Assembly: GCF_900110025.1 (NCBI RefSeq)
Contig: NZ_FOCE01000016.1
Span: 1 to 40,794 of the forward strand
Direction: 5' to 3'
From: Gemmobacter aquatilis
Lineage (GTDB): Bacteria > Pseudomonadota > Alphaproteobacteria > Rhodobacterales > Rhodobacteraceae
DNA: 40,794 nucleotides
The position numbers and the translations under genes are program-made. Positions 15,716-25,376 of this stretch are shown here, one piece after another. A model generated the notes under the pieces. That model saw nothing but the letters and a program-made list of their open reading frames with translations. It was not told where the DNA came from and searched no databases. Numbering within the stretch: position 1 is the first letter of the stretch; each line of letters opens with the position of its first letter.

Positions 15716-16282
15716 ATGCAGATCGAAACAACCGCCCTGCCCGGCGTGGTGATCCTGACCCCGGCGCGCTTTGGCGATGCCCGCGGCTTCTTTGCCGAAA
15801 GCTGGAACCGCAAGCGCATGGCCGAGGCCGGGTTGGACATCGACTTCGTGCAGGACAACCACTCGCTTTCCACCCGCATCGGCACGGTGCGGGGCCTGCA
15901 TTTCCAGCCGCCCCCCCATGCACAGGCGAAACTGGTGCGCTGCGGCCACGGGCGGCTGTGGGATGTGGCGGTGGATATCCGCGCCGGATCGCCGACCTAT
16001 GGGCGCTGGGTGGGGGTGGAGCTTTCGGCGGAAAACGGGCGGCAATTGCTGATCCCGGCAGGCTTCGCGCATGGCTTCGTGACGCGCGAGGCGGATACCG
16101 AGATCGTCTACAAATGCAGCGATTACTACGCACCCGACTGTGATGGCGGCATCCGCTGGGATGACCCGGCGCTCGGCATCGACTGGGGGCTGGGGGGGCT
16201 GGCCCCCGTGCTGTCCGACAAGGACGCCAAGGCGCCGCTGCTGGCCGATCTGGCCAATCCGTTTGTCTGGGGGGCGGCATGA
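15716..16282 (+). CDS. rfbC: dTDP-4-dehydrorhamnose 3,5-epimerase
   Basis: A 188-residue cupin-fold enzyme, the third step of dTDP-L-rhamnose synthesis (epimerises C3 and C5). The catalytic His62 is in VRGLHFQ, Lys72 in QAKLVRC, and a Tyr lies in CSDYYAP (about 137-138). The length is typical. A GGGAGAG ribosome site precedes the ATG. It is first in the rfbCBDA operon, and its stop overlaps the start of rfbB (ATGA at 16279-16282), implying translational coupling. Confidence 0.96.
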
Positions 16283-17325
16283 AGATTCTGGTCACCGGGG
16301 GCGCGGGCTTCATCGGCTCGGCGGTAGTGCGGCTGGCGGTGGGGCGCGGGCATCAGGTGGTGAACCTCGATTGCCTGACCTATGCCGCCTGTCTGGAGAA
16401 TGTGAAAAGCGTCTCTGACAACGCCCTTTATGCCTTTGAACAGGCCGATATCCGCGACCGTCCGGCATTGGACCGGATCTTGGCGCAGCATCAGCCCGAT
16501 GCGGTGATGCATCTGGCCGCCGAAAGCCATGTGGATCGCTCGATCGACGGGCCTGCGGATTTCATCGAAACCAACATCACCGGCACCTTCAACCTGCTGG
16601 AGGCCGCGCGCAGCTACTGGGCCGCAGCGGGCAAGCCCGAAGGGTTCCGCTTTCACCATATTTCCACCGATGAAGTGTTCGGCTCCCTGCCGAACGATCC
16701 TTCGGTCAAGTTCACCGAAGATACGCCCTATGACCCGCGCAGCCCCTATTCCGCCTCGAAGGCCGCAAGCGACCATCTGGTGCGCGCCTGGGGGGAAACC
16801 TACGGCCTGCCGGTGGTGCTGACCAATTGTTCCAACAATTACGGCCCCTACCATTTCCCCGAAAAGCTGATCCCGGTGGTGATCCTGAACGCGCTGGCAG
16901 GCAGGCCGATCCCGGTTTACGGCGCGGGCGAAAACGTGCGCGACTGGCTTTATGTCGAAGACCACGCCGAAGCGTTGCTGCTGGTGCTGGAGCGCGGGCA
17001 ACTGGGCCGCAGCTACAATATCGGCGGCGAGAACGAGCGCCGGAACATCAACCTCGTGCGCATGATCTGCGCGATATTAGACTCTAAACGGCCCAAAGCC
17101 ACACCTTATGCCGATCAGATCACCTTCGTGACCGACCGGCCCGGCCATGATGCCCGCTATGCCATCGACCCCACGCGCATCCGCGCCGAACTGGGCTGGC
17201 GGCCCTCGGTCACGGTCGAGGAAGGGCTGGCGCGCACGGTGCAATGGTATCTCGACAACGAGGCGTGGTGGCGCCCCCTGCAGGCGCGGGCGGGCGTGGG
17301 CGAACGGCTGGGGGTGAAGGCATGA
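16279..17325 (+). CDS. rfbB: dTDP-glucose 4,6-dehydratase
   Basis: A 348-residue SDR enzyme performing the second step of dTDP-L-rhamnose synthesis. The NAD-binding TGGAGFIGS is at residues 6-14, the catalytic Thr130-Asp131-Glu132 in STDEVFG, and the Tyr157/Lys161 pair in [19 protein letters not shown] follows as in the family. The start overlaps the rfbC stop and the stop overlaps the rfbD start, both by 4 bp. Confidence 0.97.
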
Positions 17326-18170
17326 AGCTGCTGGTTTTCGGGCAAACCGGGCAGGTGGCGCGCGAATTGCAGCGGGCCGCCCCCGAGGCCCGCTATCTGG
17401 GCCGCGATCACGCCGATCTGACCAACCCCGCCGCCTGTGCCGCCGCCATACGAGCCAGCGGCGCGCAGGCGGTGATCAATGCCGCCGCCTATACCGCGGT
17501 GGACCGGGCCGAAAGCGATACAGCAACCGCGCAGCTGGTGAATGGCGACAGCCCCGGGGGCATGGCGCAGGCCTGTGCGGCGCAGGGCATCCCCTTCCTG
17601 CATGTCTCGACCGATTATGTCTTTGATGGCACGGGCACCGCGCCGTGGCGGCCCGAAGACCCGACAGCGCCGATCAATGTCTATGGCCGCACCAAACTGG
17701 CGGGCGAGGCGGCGGTGCGGACCTCGGGGGCGCGGCATGTGATCCTGCGCACCTCCTGGGTATTTTCGGCCCATGGCGCGAATTTCGTCAAGACCATGCT
17801 GCGTCTGGGCGCCGAGCGGTCCCACCTGCGCGTCGTCGCTGATCAGATCGGCGGGCCGACCCCGGCTAAAGGCATCGCCGCCACGCTGCTGACGCTGGCC
17901 GCGGCCCTGCGTGATGGCGCGACGGGCGGCACGCATCACTATGCCGGTGTGCCCGAAACAAGCTGGTCCTGTTTCGCGCGCGAAACATTTGCGCAAGCCG
18001 GGATGGATGTCACGGTCGAGGATATCCCGACCGAGGCCTACCCCACCCCGGCGCGGCGGCCGCTGAATTCCCGGCTCGATTGTGCCGCATTGGCGACGGA
18101 TTTCGGCATTACGCCCCCAGACTGGCGGGCCGGTCTGGCCGAGGTGATTGGCGAGTTGAAAGGGGCCTGA
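17322..18170 (+). CDS. rfbD: dTDP-4-dehydrorhamnose reductase
   Basis: A 282-residue SDR enzyme that makes the final product, dTDP-L-rhamnose, with NAD(P)H. Visible are the GQTGQVA nucleotide loop (7-13), STDYVFDG (96-103) and YGRTK (Tyr121/Lys125). The ATG at 17322 overlaps the rfbB stop by 4 bp; the upstream open frame lies within rfbB. Codons 217-222 (Cys-Phe-Ala-Arg-Glu-Thr) are exactly the 18-bp palindrome found after parA, so this gene appears to contain a partition site. Three of those six codons (TGT, ACA and, next to them, TTT) are unusual choices for this GC-rich region. Confidence 0.95.
17970..17987. other. parS: Second parS-like palindrome, inside rfbD
   Basis: TGTTTCGCGCGCGAAACA, a perfect 18-bp palindrome identical to the one following parA at 24214-24231, 6.2 kb away. 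It occupies exactly six in-frame codons of rfbD. The half-sites TGTTTC/GAAACA equal those of the canonical chromosomal parS, with a 6-bp GCGCGC centre instead of ACGT. Part of the coding sequence (Phe-Ala-Arg) is normal for the family, so coincidence is not fully excluded. Confidence 0.7.
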
Positions 18171-18171
18171 C

Positions 18172-19053
18172 ATGGCGCGCAAGGGGATCATTCTGGCAGG
18201 CGGCTCGGGCACGCGGCTTTACCCGATCACCATCGGCATCTCGAAACAACTGCTGCCGATCTATGACAAGCCGATGATCTATTACCCGCTGTCGGTGCTG
18301 ATGCTGACCGGTATCCGCGACATCGCCGTGATCACCACACCGCAGGATCAGGACCAGTTCCGCCGCACGCTGGGCGATGGCAGCCAATGGGGGCTGAACC
18401 TCAGCTATATCGAACAGCCTTCGCCCGATGGCCTGGCCCAGGCCTATCTGCTGGCCCGCGATTTTCTGGCGGGGGAACCTTCGGCCATGGTGCTGGGCGA
18501 CAATATCTTCTTCGGCCATGGCCTGCCCGATCAGCTGGCCCGCGCCGATGCGCGCGCCAGTGGCGGCACGGTGTTCGGCTACCGCGTGGCCGATCCCGAA
18601 CGCTATGGCGTAGTAGGGTTCGACGACACGGGCCGGGTGAACCGGATCATCGAAAAACCCGCACACCCGCCCTCGCCCTATGCCGTCACCGGGCTGTATT
18701 TCCTCGACGGCACCGCGCCGGACCGGGCCCGCGCCGTCACGCCTTCCCCCCGGGGCGAGTTGGAGATCACCTCGCTGCTGGAAATGTATCTGGCCGAAGG
18801 GCTGCTGTCGGTGGAACAGATGGGCCGCGGCTTTGCCTGGCTGGATACCGGCACCCATGCCAGCCTGCTGGATGCCGGAAACTTCGTGCGCACGCTGACC
18901 GAACGGCAGGGCCAGCAGGTGGGCAGCCCCGAAGAGATCGCCTTTGCCAAGGGCTGGATCAGCGCCGATCACCTGGCGGCGCGGGCCCGGCTGTTCGGCA
19001 AGAACGCCTATGGCAGCTATCTGATGGGTCTGCTGGACCCCGCCCACCGCTGA
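18172..19053 (+). CDS. rfbA: Glucose-1-phosphate thymidylyltransferase
   Basis: A 293-residue nucleotidyltransferase, the first step of dTDP-L-rhamnose synthesis: dTTP plus glucose-1-phosphate gives dTDP-glucose. The nucleotide-binding loop is LAGGSGTRLYP (8-18), followed by KQLLPIYDKPM. The metal-binding Asp110 is in VLGDNIFFG. Length and ending are typical of long-form RmlA. It starts 1 bp after the rfbD stop and closes the operon; only 2 bp separate its stop from the convergent DUF4376 gene. Confidence 0.97.
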   Translation: MARKGIILAGGSGTRLYPITIGISKQLLPIYDKPMIYYPLSVLMLTGIRDIAVITTPQDQDQFRRTLGDGSQWGLNLSYIEQPSPDGLAQAYLLARDFLAGEPSAMVLGDNIFFGHGLPDQLARADARASGGTVFGYRVADPERYGVVGFDDTGRVNRIIEKPAHPPSPYAVTGLYFLDGTAPDRARAVTPSPRGELEITSLLEMYLAEGLLSVEQMGRGFAWLDTGTHASLLDAGNFVRTLTERQGQQVGSPEEIAFAKGWISADHLAARARLFGKNAYGSYLMGLLDPAHR

Positions 19054-19055
19054 GC

Positions 19056-19433
19056 TCAGCCGGGCCAGCCGGTTTCCGCATCCACCGCGCCGCCTTCGGC
19101 CAGGGCGGCCAGCAACGCCGCTTCGTGATCGAAACAGGCCTGCACATGGGCGCGCACCGCCCGGGCAATCGCCAGAATCTGCCCCGCAGCCAGAAGGATG
19201 AAGCGGCCATCGGGCAGTTTCCATTGCACGCAGGTCTCCGGGTCCAGCATAGCGGCCAGCGCGGCGCCGGTCAGCCGCGCCTGCGACACGTCGTCGGTGG
19301 CCACAGGCAGCCCGTCCAGCACGATCCCGGCCGCAATCGCCCGGTCGCGCCGCAGCTTGATCGCGGCCCGGCGGGCGGCAAGCGTCTCTGCATTGCGGGT
19401 TTCGGCGGGAATGACCCGGGTCCAGTCGATCAT
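19056..19433 (-). CDS. DUF4376-like protein, tail-module gene 3
   Basis: A 125-residue protein. The segment with ETRNAETLAARRAAIKLRRD, followed by an Ala-rich helical region and a central hydrophobic stretch, resembles the DUF4376 domain often found at the end of phage tail-fibre genes. The ATG at 19433 overlaps the upstream gene's stop by 4 bp, so translation is coupled; the longer open frame upstream lies antisense to nothing useful and reads as low-complexity Arg/Pro/Gly. No catalytic residues are evident. It ends 2 bp from rfbA. Function is unknown; the context is a small phage- or GTA-derived module. Confidence 0.65.
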   Translation of the reverse strand: MIDWTRVIPAETRNAETLAARRAAIKLRRDRAIAAGIVLDGLPVATDDVSQARLTGAALAAMLDPETCVQWKLPDGRFILLAAGQILAIARAVRAHVQACFDHEAALLAALAEGGAVDAETGWPG

Positions 19434-19744
19434 TGTGCAGTCTCCTCGGGTCCATCGGCGGGCAGCAAGACCGGGCCATCCCCGGTCAGATCGAGCGGGG
19501 CAGGGTGCAGACGGGCCGGGCCGGCCTCGGCCCCATGCGGCAGGATCAGCGTGAGGCGGATCACCCCGCCCTCGCGCGTCACATCCGAGGCCAGCCAAGG
19601 GCAGGCCACCGCCGCGCGCGGCAGAACCGCGCCCTCGGCCAGCGGGGTGAAATCATAGTCCGTGCCGTTGATCGTCAGCACATCGCCCGCGCGGTGCAGG
19701 CTCAGGGTTGTATCCATGCGGATGGGGGACAGGGTGATGTACAT
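19430..19744 (-). CDS. Small hypothetical protein, tail-module gene 2
   Basis: A 104-residue protein beginning MYITLSPIRMD, with a Leu-His-Arg-Ala-Gly-Asp-Val segment, then NGTDYDFTPL, and a conserved-looking CPWLASDVTREGG in the middle. It has no signal peptide or membrane segment. A strong GAGGAGGG ribosome site precedes the ATG, showing this is a real gene. It lies 11 bp after the DUF2793 gene and overlaps the next gene by 4 bp. The set of three resembles tail-fibre accessory genes of rhodobacterial prophages, which is a resemblance from memory. Function unknown. Confidence 0.65.
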   Translation of the reverse strand: MYITLSPIRMDTTLSLHRAGDVLTINGTDYDFTPLAEGAVLPRAAVACPWLASDVTREGGVIRLTLILPHGAEAGPARLHPAPLDLTGDGPVLLPADGPEETAQ

Positions 19745-19755
19745 GGTGGCCCTCC

Positions 19756-21255
19756 TCAGAACCAGCGGCCGATGGCCGTCAGAATATAGTCGAACCCACC
19801 CGCCGCGCTGGCGGTGCGCATCAACCCGGCAGAAACAGATGTCGTGCTGTGGGTGTTGGTCACCACCCAGCCGACGCTGTTTTTGCACTCGCCATGCACC
19901 ACCGGATAGGATCCGGTCACGAAGGCGGCAGGAAAGCTCCAGACCGAAAAATTGCAGGTGTAAAGCGCGCCGCTGGCCACATTGACCGCGCCAGACGTCA
20001 GACCGGGCGAAATGCAGATCTGCGTCCCATCGGCAAAACGAGCATATTCGCCATTCGCGTTGCTGGCGCGCTCGATCACCGCCCCGGTCGGAACGCCGCT
20101 GGACTGGCTGACCGCGCCGACAACCGGTGTATCCTGCACCCAGGCCGTCCAGCCGCCGCTGTTGTAGCTGCGGGTCCAGCGGCCTTTCGATGTGACCAGC
20201 GGTGTCAGCGTTTCCACGAAAGCCACCGTGCTGATGCGCTGCACATCGAGCGTGGCATAGGTGGCAGCCATGCCGGGCGGCCAAGTGCCTGCAGTGGTAT
20301 TGGTCGGATGCAGCAGGTAGAGACCCGAGGCGAGCGTGCCATCGTCGAGATTGGCGGCCACCGTCGGTGCACCAACCGTACCCGTCCCGAAGTCCCCGGT
20401 CCGCATCAACCGCCCGGCGGTCGCATCGGTGGCGCTTTGCGTGATGGCCGTGCCGGTCAGCGGCAGGTCGAGCTGGAAGGCACTGCCCCCCATCAGCGCG
20501 CGCGCGATGCCGGCCACGGCGAACCCGATCTGGCCCGTCGCGCTGCGAAACAGGCCGGTCGTCGGCGCGGCCCCAAAACCCAGCGCCGGGGTTGCCGCAG
20601 CGCCATCGCCAAGCACCGCCCCGGCGGGCAGGCTCACCCGGCCTGTCGCGTGATCGGCGAGCAGCGCCTCGCTCCAGGTCAGGCCATCGGGACTGACTTT
20701 CACGCTGAAATCGTCACCGCCGACCAGCCCCATCTCGGCCCGGCCCGACCAGTTGTCCTGAAACAGCAGGCTCGCCGTATCGCCGGACGCGGCCTTGTTG
20801 ACCTTCACCTGATGCCCGGCCCCGGCATGGGTCAGCAGCGTCGCCGCCGCCGCCACGGCCAGCCGGTTGGTGGCATCATGCGTGGTATTCACTCCCAACC
20901 CCGCCAGATTGTCGAGCGGCAGTCGCTCCCAGGCGGTGCCACGCCAGATGCGCAACTCGCCCTCGGTCCGGCCCCAGGCACGCCAGCCGTCGCGCGGCGG
21001 CACAAAGGCCCAGGTGGTGCCGTCCCAGGCGGCCAGCCTGCCGCCCTGCCCCGTCCAGACGCCCTCCGGCGCGGCCCCCAGCGCATGGATCTCGCCCACC
21101 CCCGGGCTGGCAGGCGGGATCAGGCCGTCGAACCCCTGCACGACCAGTTGCACGATCTGGTCAAGCCGGGCGAGCGCCTCGTTATGGGTGACGTGCTTTT
21201 GCGCCTGCGAGGGCAGCAGATAGGGCAAGGCAAGATTGGGCGAGGTATTGGGCAT
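19756..21255 (-). CDS. DUF2793 domain protein, phage/GTA tail-fibre or spike-like
   Basis: A 499-residue protein. The N-terminal ~110 residues are the recognisable DUF2793 domain (SPNLALPYLLPSQAQKHVT, NEALARLDQ, then Trp-rich WRAWGRTEGELRIW). The middle is Gly/Ala-rich and beta-repeat-like, with phage-fibre features (ALLADHATGRVSLPAG, FRSATGQIGF). The C-terminal ~200 residues include W-rich segments (GRWTRSYNSGGWTAW) and probably bind glycans or form a fibre tip. A GGAG ribosome site precedes the ATG. No capsid, terminase or tail-tube genes are near, so this is an orphan fibre module inserted between the rhamnose operon and repA. Confidence 0.75.
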   Translation of the reverse strand: MPNTSPNLALPYLLPSQAQKHVTHNEALARLDQIVQLVVQGFDGLIPPASPGVGEIHALGAAPEGVWTGQGGRLAAWDGTTWAFVPPRDGWRAWGRTEGELRIWRGTAWERLPLDNLAGLGVNTTHDATNRLAVAAAATLLTHAGAGHQVKVNKAASGDTASLLFQDNWSGRAEMGLVGGDDFSVKVSPDGLTWSEALLADHATGRVSLPAGAVLGDGAAATPALGFGAAPTTGLFRSATGQIGFAVAGIARALMGGSAFQLDLPLTGTAITQSATDATAGRLMRTGDFGTGTVGAPTVAANLDDGTLASGLYLLHPTNTTAGTWPPGMAATYATLDVQRISTVAFVETLTPLVTSKGRWTRSYNSGGWTAWVQDTPVVGAVSQSSGVPTGAVIERASNANGEYARFADGTQICISPGLTSGAVNVASGALYTCNFSVWSFPAAFVTGSYPVVHGECKNSVGWVVTNTHSTTSVSAGLMRTASAAGGFDYILTAIGRWF

Positions 21256-21352
21256 GGCGGCTCCGGCCTGGGTTCAGCAGCGCTTCGGCCTGCACCATGC
21301 CGGGATCGCCTTGCCCGCCGCTGAATCGCCCGGCCACCGCCGTTACCCCGCG

Positions 21353-22393
21353 TTAACCCCGATCCGCCACGCGCGCATTCACCCAGCCCAGGAAAGCGCG
21401 GTCCGGCGCGGTCAGCCGCGGCTGGCCCGACATCACCCAGAAGGCCCGCCATTCGGCCTCCAGCGCATAGACATCCGCCCCCGCCGCCAGCGCCCGCGCC
21501 GCATCCAGCACCTCGGGGCCGAAAGGCGCGGGCAGGGCGGCACTCTCGTCCTCGACCAGCCCGTTGCGGCTGAAGCGGATCACATCACACGGCTCCTCGC
21601 TCATGGTGTAATCGGGCAGGCCCGCCTCGTCGATCATCTTGCGGATCGCTGCGCGGAACACCCGCAACGGCGCCGCCGACCCCGCCTTCTTGTGCAGCAC
21701 CGCCACCGAAACCCGCCATTCGGGCTGGCGCCCGCAATGCTTGCGCGCCAGTTCATAGACCCGCCGCTCCAGCGGTTTGCGCAGCCCGAAATACTCGCGG
21801 CTCAGCGTCAGCACCGACCGGCCGACCACCGCGCGAAACAGCCAGTCCGACAGCGTGACCATGACCGACACCATCCGCCCGCCGCGCGTCTTGCGCAGGA
21901 TCTCCCAGCTTTCGATCAGACCGAAGCCGGAGGTCACCTCGATGCCGCCGGTGGTCAGGTTGGTGGTGATGCGCGTGCCCACCAGCCGCTCGAACGCCTC
22001 GCGCAGCCGCTGATAGCTGTCGCCCCCGGTATCGCGGCCGGTCGCCATCAGCAGGTCATGCGCCTTGAGCTGCAGCTTGCGGCTGACCTCGCGCCCGGCA
22101 TTCAGCCCGGCCATCAGCTGGCTGATGCAGAAGATCAGGATGTCCTTGTCAAAGATCGTGGCCCGGCCCTTCACCGAAGGCGTCACCTCGATCAGCGCGC
22201 CATTATGCTCGTAGCGCAGCACCCGCAGATCGGGTTTGGTGGACAGCGAAAAGATCGGGTGTTCCATCGTGGCCAGATCATCCTTCGGGCTGGCCCCAAA
22301 GATGTCGCAAGTGAACAAATCGCCGATCACCGGCGGCGCGATGTCACGCCGCATTCTTGCGGGAATGCCTCCCGCCCCTGTCAGTCCCGCCAT
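21353..22393 (-). CDS. repA: Plasmid replication initiator protein RepA (RPA family)
   Basis: A 346-residue replication initiator. The segment MEHPIFSLSTKPD, then a KGRATIFDKDILIFC region and a winged-helix-like part (SYQRLREAFERLVGTRI), is typical of the RepA proteins that define one replicon class of Rhodobacterales plasmids. It should bind the iterons just upstream and recruit DnaA and helicase. The ATG at 22393 has AGAGGCGG upstream; an in-frame GTG at 22441 is possible but has a poor ribosome site. It is divergent from parAB. Iterons and a DnaA box upstream of the start suggest autoregulation, which is inferred. Confidence 0.92.
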   Translation of the reverse strand: MAGLTGAGGIPARMRRDIAPPVIGDLFTCDIFGASPKDDLATMEHPIFSLSTKPDLRVLRYEHNGALIEVTPSVKGRATIFDKDILIFCISQLMAGLNAGREVSRKLQLKAHDLLMATGRDTGGDSYQRLREAFERLVGTRITTNLTTGGIEVTSGFGLIESWEILRKTRGGRMVSVMVTLSDWLFRAVVGRSVLTLSREYFGLRKPLERRVYELARKHCGRQPEWRVSVAVLHKKAGSAAPLRVFRAAIRKMIDEAGLPDYTMSEEPCDVIRFSRNGLVEDESAALPAPFGPEVLDAARALAAGADVYALEAEWRAFWVMSGQPRLTAPDRAFLGWVNARVADRG

Positions 22394-22452
22394 CTGCCGC
22401 CTCTTGTGATCCCCGTTTTCACATCGGGGTTTCAGTGACACCCACCCTAGAA

Positions 22453-22461
22453 TTATCCACA
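22453..22461 (+). promoter_or_regulatory. DnaA box
   Basis: TTATCCACA, an exact match to the consensus DnaA box, lies 60 bp upstream of the repA start and 26 bp before the first iteron. The placement supports a RepA-plus-DnaA origin. Confidence 0.75.
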
Positions 22462-22486
22462 GCCCGCGTCCAGCCGCCGGAATGGC

Positions 22487-22543
22487 GGATCAGAGTCGCC
22501 GCTTCGGGGGATCAGAGTCGCTCGACTGTCGGATCAGAGTCGC
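22487..22543 (+). repeat. Three iterons, 13-bp core, exact 22-bp period
   Basis: The core GGATCAGAGTCGC occurs at 22487-22499, 22509-22521 and 22531-22543, with start-to-start distance exactly 22 bp (two helical turns), so all copies face the same side of the DNA. The sequences between the cores differ. No further copy of the core was seen in the window. They are the likely RepA binding sites for initiation and copy control. Confidence 0.88.
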
Positions 22544-22818
22544 CCCTTGCCCCAGATAGCGAAAATTCACCATGCAAAACAAAGGGCTGCAAAAAGGGCT
22601 GGGAAGCTGTAACATATAAGAATAACATCCAATAACAGAAAAAATCCGCACATGGCCCTGCCCCTGCTTGGCACCAGCCCCGCCAAAGCGCCGGGAGCAA
22701 CGCCCTCTGCCCCCCGCAAGCCACAGAATCAGCAATGAAAATACAGTGATGTGCGGTCTTTTCTTCCATATGCCGCGTTTTGTGTTATGTTTCAAAAAAA
22801 GCATCACATGAGGCACCG

Positions 22819-24213
22819 ATGAAGCCCGAGGCCGCAGCAGCCCTTCCCCCCTATTTCGGCATTGATCCCGATGCGGCGCTGGCCGCCCTGGGCGCCCCCA
22901 CCGTCACGGAAGAGTTTCAGCGCATCGCCAAGGCCTGCGAGGCGGGACGGATCGATCTGGCCGGGCGCGGGCTGGACGAAACCGGGCGGCGGCAGTTGCG
23001 GATGTTCTCGACCTGGGAAATCACCCGCTATCTGATCCCGGTGGCCCAGGCCCATTTCCGCCGCGTGCTGAAACAGAATCCCGATCTGCCGCAGGGCCTG
23101 TCGGAAACCGAGGGCGGTGCGAAATGGTTCACGCTGGACGAGGTGCTGCGCCTGCGGGCCTTCTTTGCCGCCGAAGGATCGAAGGCCAAGCCCTACCTGC
23201 CCTACCGGCCCAAGGGGCTGCCCGCCAAGATGCTGGCGGTGGCAAATTTCAAGGGCGGCGTCGGCAAGACCTCCACCTGCGCACATCTCGCCATGTCGGC
23301 AGCGCTGGATGGCTACCGCGTGCTGGTGATCGACCTCGACAGCCAGGGTTCGATGACCTCGATCTTTGGGGGCCGGGTGGCGGATGAATGGCAGACGGTC
23401 TTCCCGCTGCTGGCCCGCCATTACGCCACCCATCTGCGCGCCGACAACCAGCGCCGGCTGGACCGGGGCGATGCGCCGATCCCGATGGATGATACGCTGG
23501 GCGAAGCGCTGACCATCAAGGCCGACAGCCTGATCCAGAAAACCCACTGGCCGAATATCGACCTGATCGGGGCGCAGCTGAACCTCTACTGGGCCGAGTT
23601 CCAGATCCCGGTCTGGCGGATGCAGTCGCGCGGCTGGAAGCTGTGGGATGCGCTGACCGAAACGCTGGCCGCCGATGGCATCCTCGACCAATACGATGTG
23701 ATCTTCCTCGATACCCCGCCCGCGCTGGGGTATCTCACGATCAACGGGCTGGCGGCGGCGGATATCCTGCTGGTGCCGATGGGCGCCTCGTTTCTGGAGT
23801 TCGACAGCACGGGCCGGTTCTTCGACATGCTGCATTCCACCTTCCGCTCGATCGAAGAGGGCGAGAACATGGCGGCCCGCGCGCTGGGGCGGCGAGAGCT
23901 CAACTTCGAATGGGATGCGGTGCGCACCATCATCACCCGTTATGACGGGGCCCAGCAGGCCGAGCTTGCGGCGCTGATGCAGGGCTGGATGGGCAAGACC
24001 CTGTCCCCGCACCGGCAGGATTTCACCGCGCTGATCGGGCAGGCGGGCGAACAGGTGCGCGGCATCTACGAGGCCGATTACCGCGACTTCAACCGCGAGA
24101 CCTATGCCCGCGGCCGCGAAACCTTTGACGAGACCTGGGCCGCGGTGAAGGCGCTGATCCTGGGAAGCTGGCGGCGCGACGAACGGGCGGCCGGGCAAGA
24201 GGCGGCAGAGTGA
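22819..24213 (+). CDS. parA: Plasmid partition ATPase ParA
   Basis: A 464-residue ParA of the type with an N-terminal DNA-binding part (about 55-115, with STWEITRYL and FTLDEVLRLR). The deviant Walker A is FKGGVGKTS (144-152), Walker A' lies in LVIDLDSQGS, and a Walker B-like FLDTPPALGYLT follows. It positions the replicon by ATP-dependent action on ParB-parS complexes and probably represses its own promoter. The ATG at 22819 has GAGG upstream; the earlier open frame starts inside the AT-rich origin. The parS palindrome starts one base after the stop. Confidence 0.94.
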   Translation: MKPEAAAALPPYFGIDPDAALAALGAPTVTEEFQRIAKACEAGRIDLAGRGLDETGRRQLRMFSTWEITRYLIPVAQAHFRRVLKQNPDLPQGLSETEGGAKWFTLDEVLRLRAFFAAEGSKAKPYLPYRPKGLPAKMLAVANFKGGVGKTSTCAHLAMSAALDGYRVLVIDLDSQGSMTSIFGGRVADEWQTVFPLLARHYATHLRADNQRRLDRGDAPIPMDDTLGEALTIKADSLIQKTHWPNIDLIGAQLNLYWAEFQIPVWRMQSRGWKLWDALTETLAADGILDQYDVIFLDTPPALGYLTINGLAAADILLVPMGASFLEFDSTGRFFDMLHSTFRSIEEGENMAARALGRRELNFEWDAVRTIITRYDGAQQAELAALMQGWMGKTLSPHRQDFTALIGQAGEQVRGIYEADYRDFNRETYARGRETFDETWAAVKALILGSWRRDERAAGQEAAE

Positions 24214-24231
24214 TGTTTCGCGCGCGAAACA
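24214..24231. other. parS: Partition site parS between parA and parB
   Basis: TGTTTCGCGCGCGAAACA, a perfect 18-bp palindrome immediately after the parA stop and 74 bp before parB. It lies where the ParB-binding site of rhodobacterial plasmid modules is expected. Its half-sites match the canonical parS, but the GCGCGC centre is two bases longer, which could give specificity against the chromosomal ParB. An identical copy lies in rfbD. Confidence 0.85.
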
Positions 24232-24305: not shown

Positions 24306-25376
24306 ATGGCCAAACGCAAGCGCCTTCTGCCCTTCGGAACCGAGTCTGACGCCCCCGAGGCGATGCCGGTGCTGGAGACGAAAGCCTTCCCCACCTATCC
24401 GCTCGGCTATGCCGGGGGGCACACCTATACCCGTCAGGCCCCCATCGCCGACATGGCCGGGGCCGCCGCCGCCACCGCCGCGATGGAGGAAATGGCCGAT
24501 CTGCTGCGCCGTGCCAAGGAAGGCGGGCGCATGGTGCTGACCTTGCCATTGGTCGAGGTGGAGGCAGGCTATCTGGTGCGCGACCGCATCACCACGACCC
24601 CCGAGGATATGGCGGAACTGGTTGAATCGCTGCGCGCGCGCGGCCAGCAGACCCCGATCGAGGTGGTGCAGCTTGCGCCGGGCCGCTATGGGCTGATCTC
24701 GGGCTGGCGGCGGTTGCAGGCGCTGCACCACCTGTCGGCGCAAACCGGCGACACCGAGAAATTCGGCTCTGTTCTGGCGCTTTTGCGGCGGCCGGAACAG
24801 GCCTCCGATGCCTATCTTGCCATGGTGGAAGAGAACGAGATCCGCGTCGGCCTGTCCTTCTACGAACGCGCCCGCATCGTGACCAAGGCTGTGGAGCTGG
24901 GCGTCTACCCGACCGAGCGCGAGGCGCTGCGCGGGCTGTTCCCCACCGCGTCGCGCTCCAAGCGGTCAAAGATCGGGTCGTTCATCACGGTGGTGCGGGC
25001 GCTGGACGGCGTGCTGCGCTTCCCCGAGGCGCTGGGAGAGCGGATCGGCCTTGCGCTGGCCCAGGCGCTGGAGGCGGATGGCTCTTTCGGCGCGCGGGTT
25101 GGGGCGGCGCTGGCGGCTGCCGCGCCAGCCGATGCGCAGGCCGAGCAGGTGCAGCTGTCGCGCCTGCTCGCGGGGCCAAAGGCGCCCAAGGCCAATACAG
25201 AAAAACAGGCTCAGACCGCCGTGTCAGAGACGAATTCTGGCGCCGAGCCCCTGCCCGGCCTGCGCGTGCGGGCCGAGGCCGGGCGGCTGGTGATCGAGGG
25301 CAAAAAGGCTGATGCTGTCCTTCTGGCGCGGCTGATTGACTGGCTGGGCCGGCAGGACTGGTCTGCTGACGGCTAG
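24306..25376 (+). CDS. parB: Plasmid partition protein ParB
   Basis: A 356-residue ParB/Spo0J-type protein. The N-terminal ParB/Srx domain includes DRITTTPEDMAELVESLRA and GLISGWRRLQAL, which replaces the usual GERR motif. VEENEIRVGLSFYERARI follows, then a helix-turn-helix region (about 200-240, REALRGLFPTASRSKRSKI) that would read parS. The C-terminus is variable and probably dimerises. GGAGCTGA precedes the ATG. Its stop codon overlaps the convergent glycosyltransferase stop by 4 bp, so the partition module abuts the polysaccharide operon directly. Confidence 0.92.
   Translation: MAKRKRLLPFGTESDAPEAMPVLETKAFPTYPLGYAGGHTYTRQAPIADMAGAAAATAAMEEMADLLRRAKEGGRMVLTLPLVEVEAGYLVRDRITTTPEDMAELVESLRARGQQTPIEVVQLAPGRYGLISGWRRLQALHHLSAQTGDTEKFGSVLALLRRPEQASDAYLAMVEENEIRVGLSFYERARIVTKAVELGVYPTEREALRGLFPTASRSKRSKIGSFITVVRALDGVLRFPEALGERIGLALAQALEADGSFGARVGAALAAAAPADAQAEQVQLSRLLAGPKAPKANTEKQAQTAVSETNSGAEPLPGLRVRAEAGRLVIEGKKADAVLLARLIDWLGRQDWSADG

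Follow-up and report, generated by a model that had tools for sequence, protein, structure and literature searches.

A parS-like palindrome within the rhamnose gene rfbD of RepA-type plasmids of the Rhodobacteraceae

A palindrome shared by the partition locus and rfbD

The contig NZ_FOCE01000016.1 of Gemmobacter aquatilis, analyzed here over its whole length of 40,794 nucleotides and called the window in the following, carries a replication and partition module (repA, parA, parB) together with a dTDP-rhamnose operon of the genes rfbC, rfbB, rfbD and rfbA. The 18-bp palindrome TGTTTCGCGCGCGAAACA occurs in it exactly twice, once between parA and parB and once inside rfbD (Table 1). The present analysis is concerned with this rfbD copy, which probably represents a second, intragenic parS of the plasmid that is kept by selection on the DNA. 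The window equals the entire contig C31 of its genome, and a comparison of the two contig ends found no overlap between them. It combines, on a single replicon, an RPA-type repA adjoining parA-parB with a dTDP-rhamnose operon, and has the layout of what we take to be the RepA-I rhamnose ('biofilm') plasmids of roseobacters; one related record is annotated as RepA-I. The same set of repA, parA, parB and rfb genes is found in the RepA-I rhamnose plasmids of Phaeobacter, Sulfitobacter, Leisingera and others, and the same layout is annotated in plasmid p5 of G. fulvus.

The original prediction of two identical copies agrees with the searches of window and genome. In the own genome (3,960,730 bases in 33 contigs) the exact 18-mer is restricted to the two window positions, no further match with up to three mismatches exists in the window, and none was found in 100 dinucleotide shuffles of the window. 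The par copy directly abuts the parA stop codon (24211-24213), and 74 bases separate its end from parB. Because the outermost bases vary among relatives, where T is replaced by G or C (GGT, CGT) and A by C or G (ACC, ACG), the 16-mer GTTTCGCGCGCGAAAC is regarded as the conserved unit, hereafter the core; allowing one mismatch, one further copy of it exists in the own genome, on contig C23. Within rfbD the palindrome is read in frame as TGT TTC GCG CGC GAA ACA, with TTT as the next codon. TGT, ACA and TTT had been noticed as uncommon codons, and the counts in 26 chosen open reading frames of the window bear this out (18% of Cys, 7% of Thr and 20% of Phe codons, respectively); TTC, GCG, CGC and GAA are ordinary codons there.

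Table 1. Positions of the two palindromes and of the partition, replication and rhamnose genes in the window
Feature	Position	Strand	Remarks
Intragenic parS-like palindrome TGTTTCGCGCGCGAAACA, rfbD codons 217-222	17970..17987	+	conserved core 17971-17986
parS-like palindrome between parA and parB	24214..24231	+	core 24215-24230
parA, ParA-type partition ATPase	22819..24213	+	AAA_31; partition_RepA model under its cut-off
parB, ParB/RepB-type partition protein	24306..25376	+	model scores below cut-off; annotation of relatives, ParB N-terminal domain protein; presumably binds the two palindromes
repA, replication initiator protein A	21353..22396	-	PF10134, RPA
rfbC, dTDP-4-dehydrorhamnose 3,5-epimerase	15716..16282	+
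rfbB, dTDP-glucose 4,6-dehydratase	16279..17325	+
rfbD (rmlD), dTDP-4-dehydrorhamnose reductase	17322..18170	+	hosts the second palindrome
rfbA, glucose-1-phosphate thymidylyltransferase	18172..19053	+

The palindrome in related partition loci

A ParA search of 394 family genomes (393 genera) found 148 with a match at E 1e-120. For the comparison, 114 par loci were used, namely 108 of the best-matching ones, four members of the genus taken by their rfbD, the window and G. fulvus p5, across which ParA identity amounts to 70-93%. In the region from the end of parA to 2 kb beyond, GTTTCGCGCGCGAAAC or its CATG variant GTTTCGCATGCGAAAC was found with at most one mismatch at 155 sites in 93 of the 114 loci, whereas five control palindromes together gave two sites in two loci. 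Only the rows with zero and one mismatch were used, since one control palindrome is itself two bases off the core; the row with two mismatches (101/114 loci versus 63/114 for the control) was discarded for this reason. For a looser motif admitting other centres, including a 15-bp form, 97 of 114 loci had a match in this 2-kb stretch behind parA, a figure given without control. Frequent positions of the sites are directly 3' of parA and directly 3' of parB. Among the par loci the arms of the palindrome are constant and the centre is variable, often symmetrically, which fits the expectation for a site bound by a dimer.

The palindrome is thus an inverted repeat near parA and parB that recurs in related loci, as parS sites are recognised, and very likely the 16-bp unit serves this RepA-type plasmid as its parS. 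Of the original prediction, the parS identity is strongly suggested by this recurrence, while the binding of ParB to the palindrome stays a prediction from sequence. Both window copies also fit GTTNNNNGCNNNNAAC, the repABC parS consensus quoted in PMC9040568, although the CATG variants of relatives conflict with the central GC of that consensus. The window copies are regarded as resembling repABC sites and are not classed with them: repC is missing from contig C31 (within this genome, matches to the RP-C family, PF03428, lie on C10, C29 and C30), and the PF10134-type repA lies on the other strand.

Other parS-like forms were seen in the same ParB group (loci L054, L086 and L152), namely the 15-bp GTTTCGC(A/T)GCGAAAC, which could not encode F-A-R-E in frame, and GTTCCGCGCGCGGAAC. 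In G. fulvus p5 the par-region copies read GTTTCGCGTGCGAAAC, and an additional exact core sits some 3.7 kb beyond parA, in a gene whose product is annotated as a hypothetical protein (L032:21100).

Distribution, codon usage and descent of the rfbD site

An rfbD match exists in 8 of the 11 genomes of the genus. The core stands at identical codons in the window, G361 (G. fulvus), G394, G396, G397 and G401, and is lacking in rfbD of G398 and G399 and in the second rfbD of G361; G399 has a par locus of this type, which shares a contig with the core-free rfbD at a distance of about 35 kb. The second rfb gene set of G. fulvus, whose rfbD is without palindrome, lies on p5 (L072, contig C6, near 122 kb). 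Outside the genus, rfbD carries the core in G350, G204, G316 (Tropicibacter oceani), G138, G098, G273, G245, G234, G390 and G099 as well as in plasmids of Jannaschia M317, Sulfitobacter D7 and Sulfitobacter W027; the Jannaschia site uses ACG and keeps the 16-mer intact. An rfbD lies within the retrieved stretch of 44 par loci, and 11 of these genes contain the exact core, at varying distances and in either orientation; four of the 11 come from the genus members that had been selected through their RfbD protein.

A codon-blind survey for W-x-x-F-A-[RC]-E-[TIM] in the 394 family genomes, with synonymous codons free except AGR, yielded 147 sites in 141 genomes, most of which were taken as rfbD-like without an individual check; one was dropped, as no rfbD is present there. 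Because the pattern is limited to genes with Glu221 followed by Thr, Ile or Met and is blind to arginine encoded by AGA or AGG, the survey denominators exclude genes of the FARAI type. On contigs with this parA the exact inner 15-mer TTTCGCGCGCGAAAC was present at 10 of 43 sites, compared with 3 of 103 elsewhere (Fisher 3e-4). With up to one mismatch to either variant the numbers are 16/43 versus 9/103, and Thr222 itself is found at 12/43 versus 5/103 sites. Two of the three exact carriers apart from this parA are G245, whose contig bears a repA of this type, and G390, whose contig is a 10-kb fragment; the third is G099. In 14 carriers, 26 of 29 exact genome copies are situated on a contig with this parA or repA.

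Codon usage was evaluated in 21 rfbD genes selected by their protein sequence FARET, whose members outside the genus all belong to the survey sites; a codon table of the exact-core carriers was set aside as circular, since these had been chosen by the core. The exact core is present in 16 of the 21 genes and the other five deviate by one to three bases. The codon of Thr222 is ACA in 19/21 (share of ACA among the remaining Thr codons of these genes, 12.3%) and that of Gly217 is GGT in 10/10 (background 9.8%), where the corresponding binomial values assume independent genes and the genes are partly related; the remaining positions use TTC in 21, GCG in 17, CGC in 21 and GAA in 20. The proteins are 54-77% identical to the RfbD of the window, a distance at which synonymous sites should be near saturation. 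Relatives free of the palindrome mostly bear other residues (FAREI, FARAI), and among genes with Ile222 the Glu codon is GAA in 11/31 on parA contigs versus 17/98 elsewhere (p 0.045). It had been proposed that the palindrome rather than the protein is preserved in rfbD, which would be contradicted by relatives that keep the amino acids and lose the palindrome. This is not the rule in the FARET genes, so it seems that DNA rather than peptide is held, and the rfbD copy probably did not arise as an accident of coding.

The rhodobacterial RfbD motif W-x-x-F-A-R-E-I, when written in GC-rich codons (TTC GCG CGC GAG ATC), is only two changes away from the inner 15-mer, namely the synonymous change GAG to GAA and the replacement of Ile222 by Thr (ATC to ACx), and a codon 217 ending in GT completes the core. 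The recurrence of the site at these codons would thus be explained by the RfbD motif being a near-parS in GC-rich codons.

Two plasmids with the CATG-type centre provide matching variants. In G305 and Rhodovulum marinum GTTTCGCATGCGAAAC occurs twice as parS, and the rfbD sites read GTTTCGCATGCGAAAT and ATTTCGCATGCGAAAT, respectively; both genes use TGC, so that residue 220 is Cys instead of Arg. Altogether, the rfbD site matches in two of the eight CATG-type plasmids with rfbD. Cys220 without the palindrome was seen in one case (G151). The scan for ParB columns that separate CGCG- from CATG-type loci gave only weak best hits, which were not used.

In 22 genomes searched with one mismatch allowed, 74 matches were obtained versus 8 for a reversed control. 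The rfbD copy is the single match of the genome in G401, G098, G245 and G099. In G401 and G098, which are draft genomes (360 contigs; 84% complete for G098), the first 2 kb downstream of parA contain no palindrome of at least 14 bp, and their ParB open frames have a normal length of 321 and 341 residues; in G245, GTTTCGCAGGCGAAAC follows parA. It is a tentative suggestion, rather less likely than not, that the centromere of G401 and G098 lies wholly in rfbD, such that one gene would serve as reductase and only parS, and that ParB specificity dictates Thr222 in CGCG-type and Cys220 in CATG-type plasmids.

The descent of the site was analyzed with a tree of 126 RfbD proteins from which the motif columns had been removed and which includes 16 exact-core carriers. 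The carriers need at least 10 changes on this tree, compared with a mean of 15.3 and a minimum of 13 in 200 shuffles, hence they cluster more than randomly. Their placement in a single clade was rejected by the approximately unbiased test (p 0.005). With the replicon labels assigned by us and four rows excluded, 14 of 55 rows on these replicons have the exact core versus 1 of 67 others. Gain and loss of the rfbD site are indistinguishable on this tree.

Interpretation and competing explanations

Taken together, the position of the palindrome, its codon-exact conservation in divergent rfbD genes, its enrichment on this replicon type, the carriers in separate clades and the two matching variant cases are best read as an auxiliary and sometimes sole intragenic parS in rfbD. 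We assign a probability of about 0.72 to the explanation that the palindrome is the plasmid parS and the rfbD copy a second one kept by selection on DNA. ParB would load at both sites alike, the one in rfbD and the one at par, and would then spread onto the adjacent DNA; having a further loading point some 6 kb away from the par copy might make partition more reliable.

Several observations weigh against this explanation. The exact core is missing from rfbD in 33 of the 44 par loci, in 12 of 17 named plasmid records with rfbD, our choice among the best-matching rows (it is present in the other five), and in all 80 loci among the matches listed in the genome scan. Rhodobacter CZR27, Roseovarius faecimaris, Marinibacterium anthonyi and Cereibacter sphaeroides p.A have a core-free rfbD though their plasmid parS is the same; since several rfbD genes on same-parS plasmids do without the site, it can tie the rfb operon to the replicon at most optionally. 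Conversely, the core-bearing rfbD of G099 (L302, contig C13, 131 kb) has no par or rep genes of this type on its contig, and the genome-wide search at E 1e-120 found no such par system; perhaps this gene moved off such a plasmid recently. Regarding the variants, G234 combines a CATG parS with a CGCG site in rfbD, G211 has a hybrid (CACG) in rfbD and no CATG site, and no CATG site was found in rfbD of the CATG plasmids of G208, G288, G344 (which also bears a CGCG parS) and R. denitrificans pTB2. The reversed control has matches of its own at one mismatch, one of them in G401. A trade-off in site number was sought and not found, as par-region sites are no fewer in carriers (1.36 versus 1.45, p 0.8). 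Phylogenetically paired contrasts pointed nearly always in one direction and were not significant (median p 0.125-0.25). Moreover, inner branches are weak, and transfer of the rfb operon is likely and could mimic separate gains. Finally, the 18-mer is scattered between genes in some genomes, where another protein may read it.

Intragenic parS sites are already known. On repABC replicons of Rhodobacterales they occur in cas3, casA and casB near the partition operon in six species, several independent origins were thought likely, and positive selection inside coding sequence was proposed, according to PMC9040568. The present sites share with these the bacterial order and the location of an extra parS inside genes, but belong to another replicon type and to one metabolic gene, at the same codons in many lineages; codon and residue tests or variant tracking as done here were not seen for the cas sites in the consulted passages of that article. 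For the Pseudomonas aeruginosa chromosome, nine of ten parS sites are predicted inside coding sequences (PMC4368675), so that a working segregation system there also has ParB sites in genes; these are, however, in several genes of a chromosome instead of one plasmid cargo gene. The IncC plasmid R55 has 14 scattered parS-like repeats, four of them in open reading frames like the site described here, and the passenger SGI1 carries parS copies; SGI1 is a rival element, and an in-frame conservation at one codon position of a biosynthetic gene was not seen in the consulted sections of PMC10954446. Our literature search, with many subscription papers outside its coverage, found no report of a parS in rfbD, including RepA-I rhamnose plasmids. 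Nor did we find in print a parS that recurs at identical codons of one enzyme gene in many lineages and brings with it residue changes demanded by the palindrome.

If true, an enzyme with no relation to segregation would have its protein sequence shaped by the DNA specificity of a segregation protein, and in an environmental plasmid type that is widespread the partition complex would include the cargo operon. Naturally occurring plasmids, of the CGCG or CATG type, with no rfbD site or with apparently no other, are ready comparisons for the number of parS sites needed per plasmid, and they also bear on ParB loading within a transcribed gene and on the origin of centromeres from near-matching coding sequence.

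Among the other explanations, a regulatory operator, by which the rfbD site would mainly permit ParB to repress or tune the rhamnose operon and thereby couple surface polysaccharide to copy number or segregation, appears unlikely. All carriers have the site in one and the same gene of the rhamnose operon, and a precedent exists in KorB of RK2, a ParB-type protein that also represses genes. However, the site lies 650 bp into the third gene rather than at a promoter, the exact core is absent from the 33 rfbD genes mentioned above, and a centromere role fits better with the two plasmids in which it is the sole site found.

A coding coincidence, taken as the main null hypothesis, in which the motif W-x-x-F-A-R-E-x in GC-rich codons resembles parS and exact matches reflect chance and descent, is regarded as slightly less likely still. 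TTC and CGC are common at the FAR residues, 22 of the 103 off-replicon sites are two mismatches and six more are one mismatch away from the inner 15-mer, and Thr222 occurs without the palindrome in G103 and Sulfitobacter S190. It does not account well for ACA and GGT against backgrounds of about 10%, for the rarity of the core-required Thr222 in RfbD generally (1/75 among the matches listed) or for the excess on these replicons.

An operator of another DNA-binding protein that is merely parS-like is very improbable, because 26 of the 29 exact copies in the 14 carriers are on the plasmid contig and most of the related loci have the site next to parA and parB, even though the 18-mer occurs many times in some family genomes (17 in G133, 14 in G371) and is intergenic in most of the 11 such loci read. 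Ten copies each were counted in G092 and G277, and the 18-mer is also present on a 3.79-Mb contig (G035, L016). The many-copy loci include L004, L005, L008, L010, L014, L016 and L017. These scattered copies, which could serve another regulator or a plasmid ParB acting on the chromosome, adjoin ordinary metabolic genes and lie, by a rough call and with the exception of L026, between open reading frames; in L004 and L010 the neighbour is a DAO-type oxidoreductase gene.

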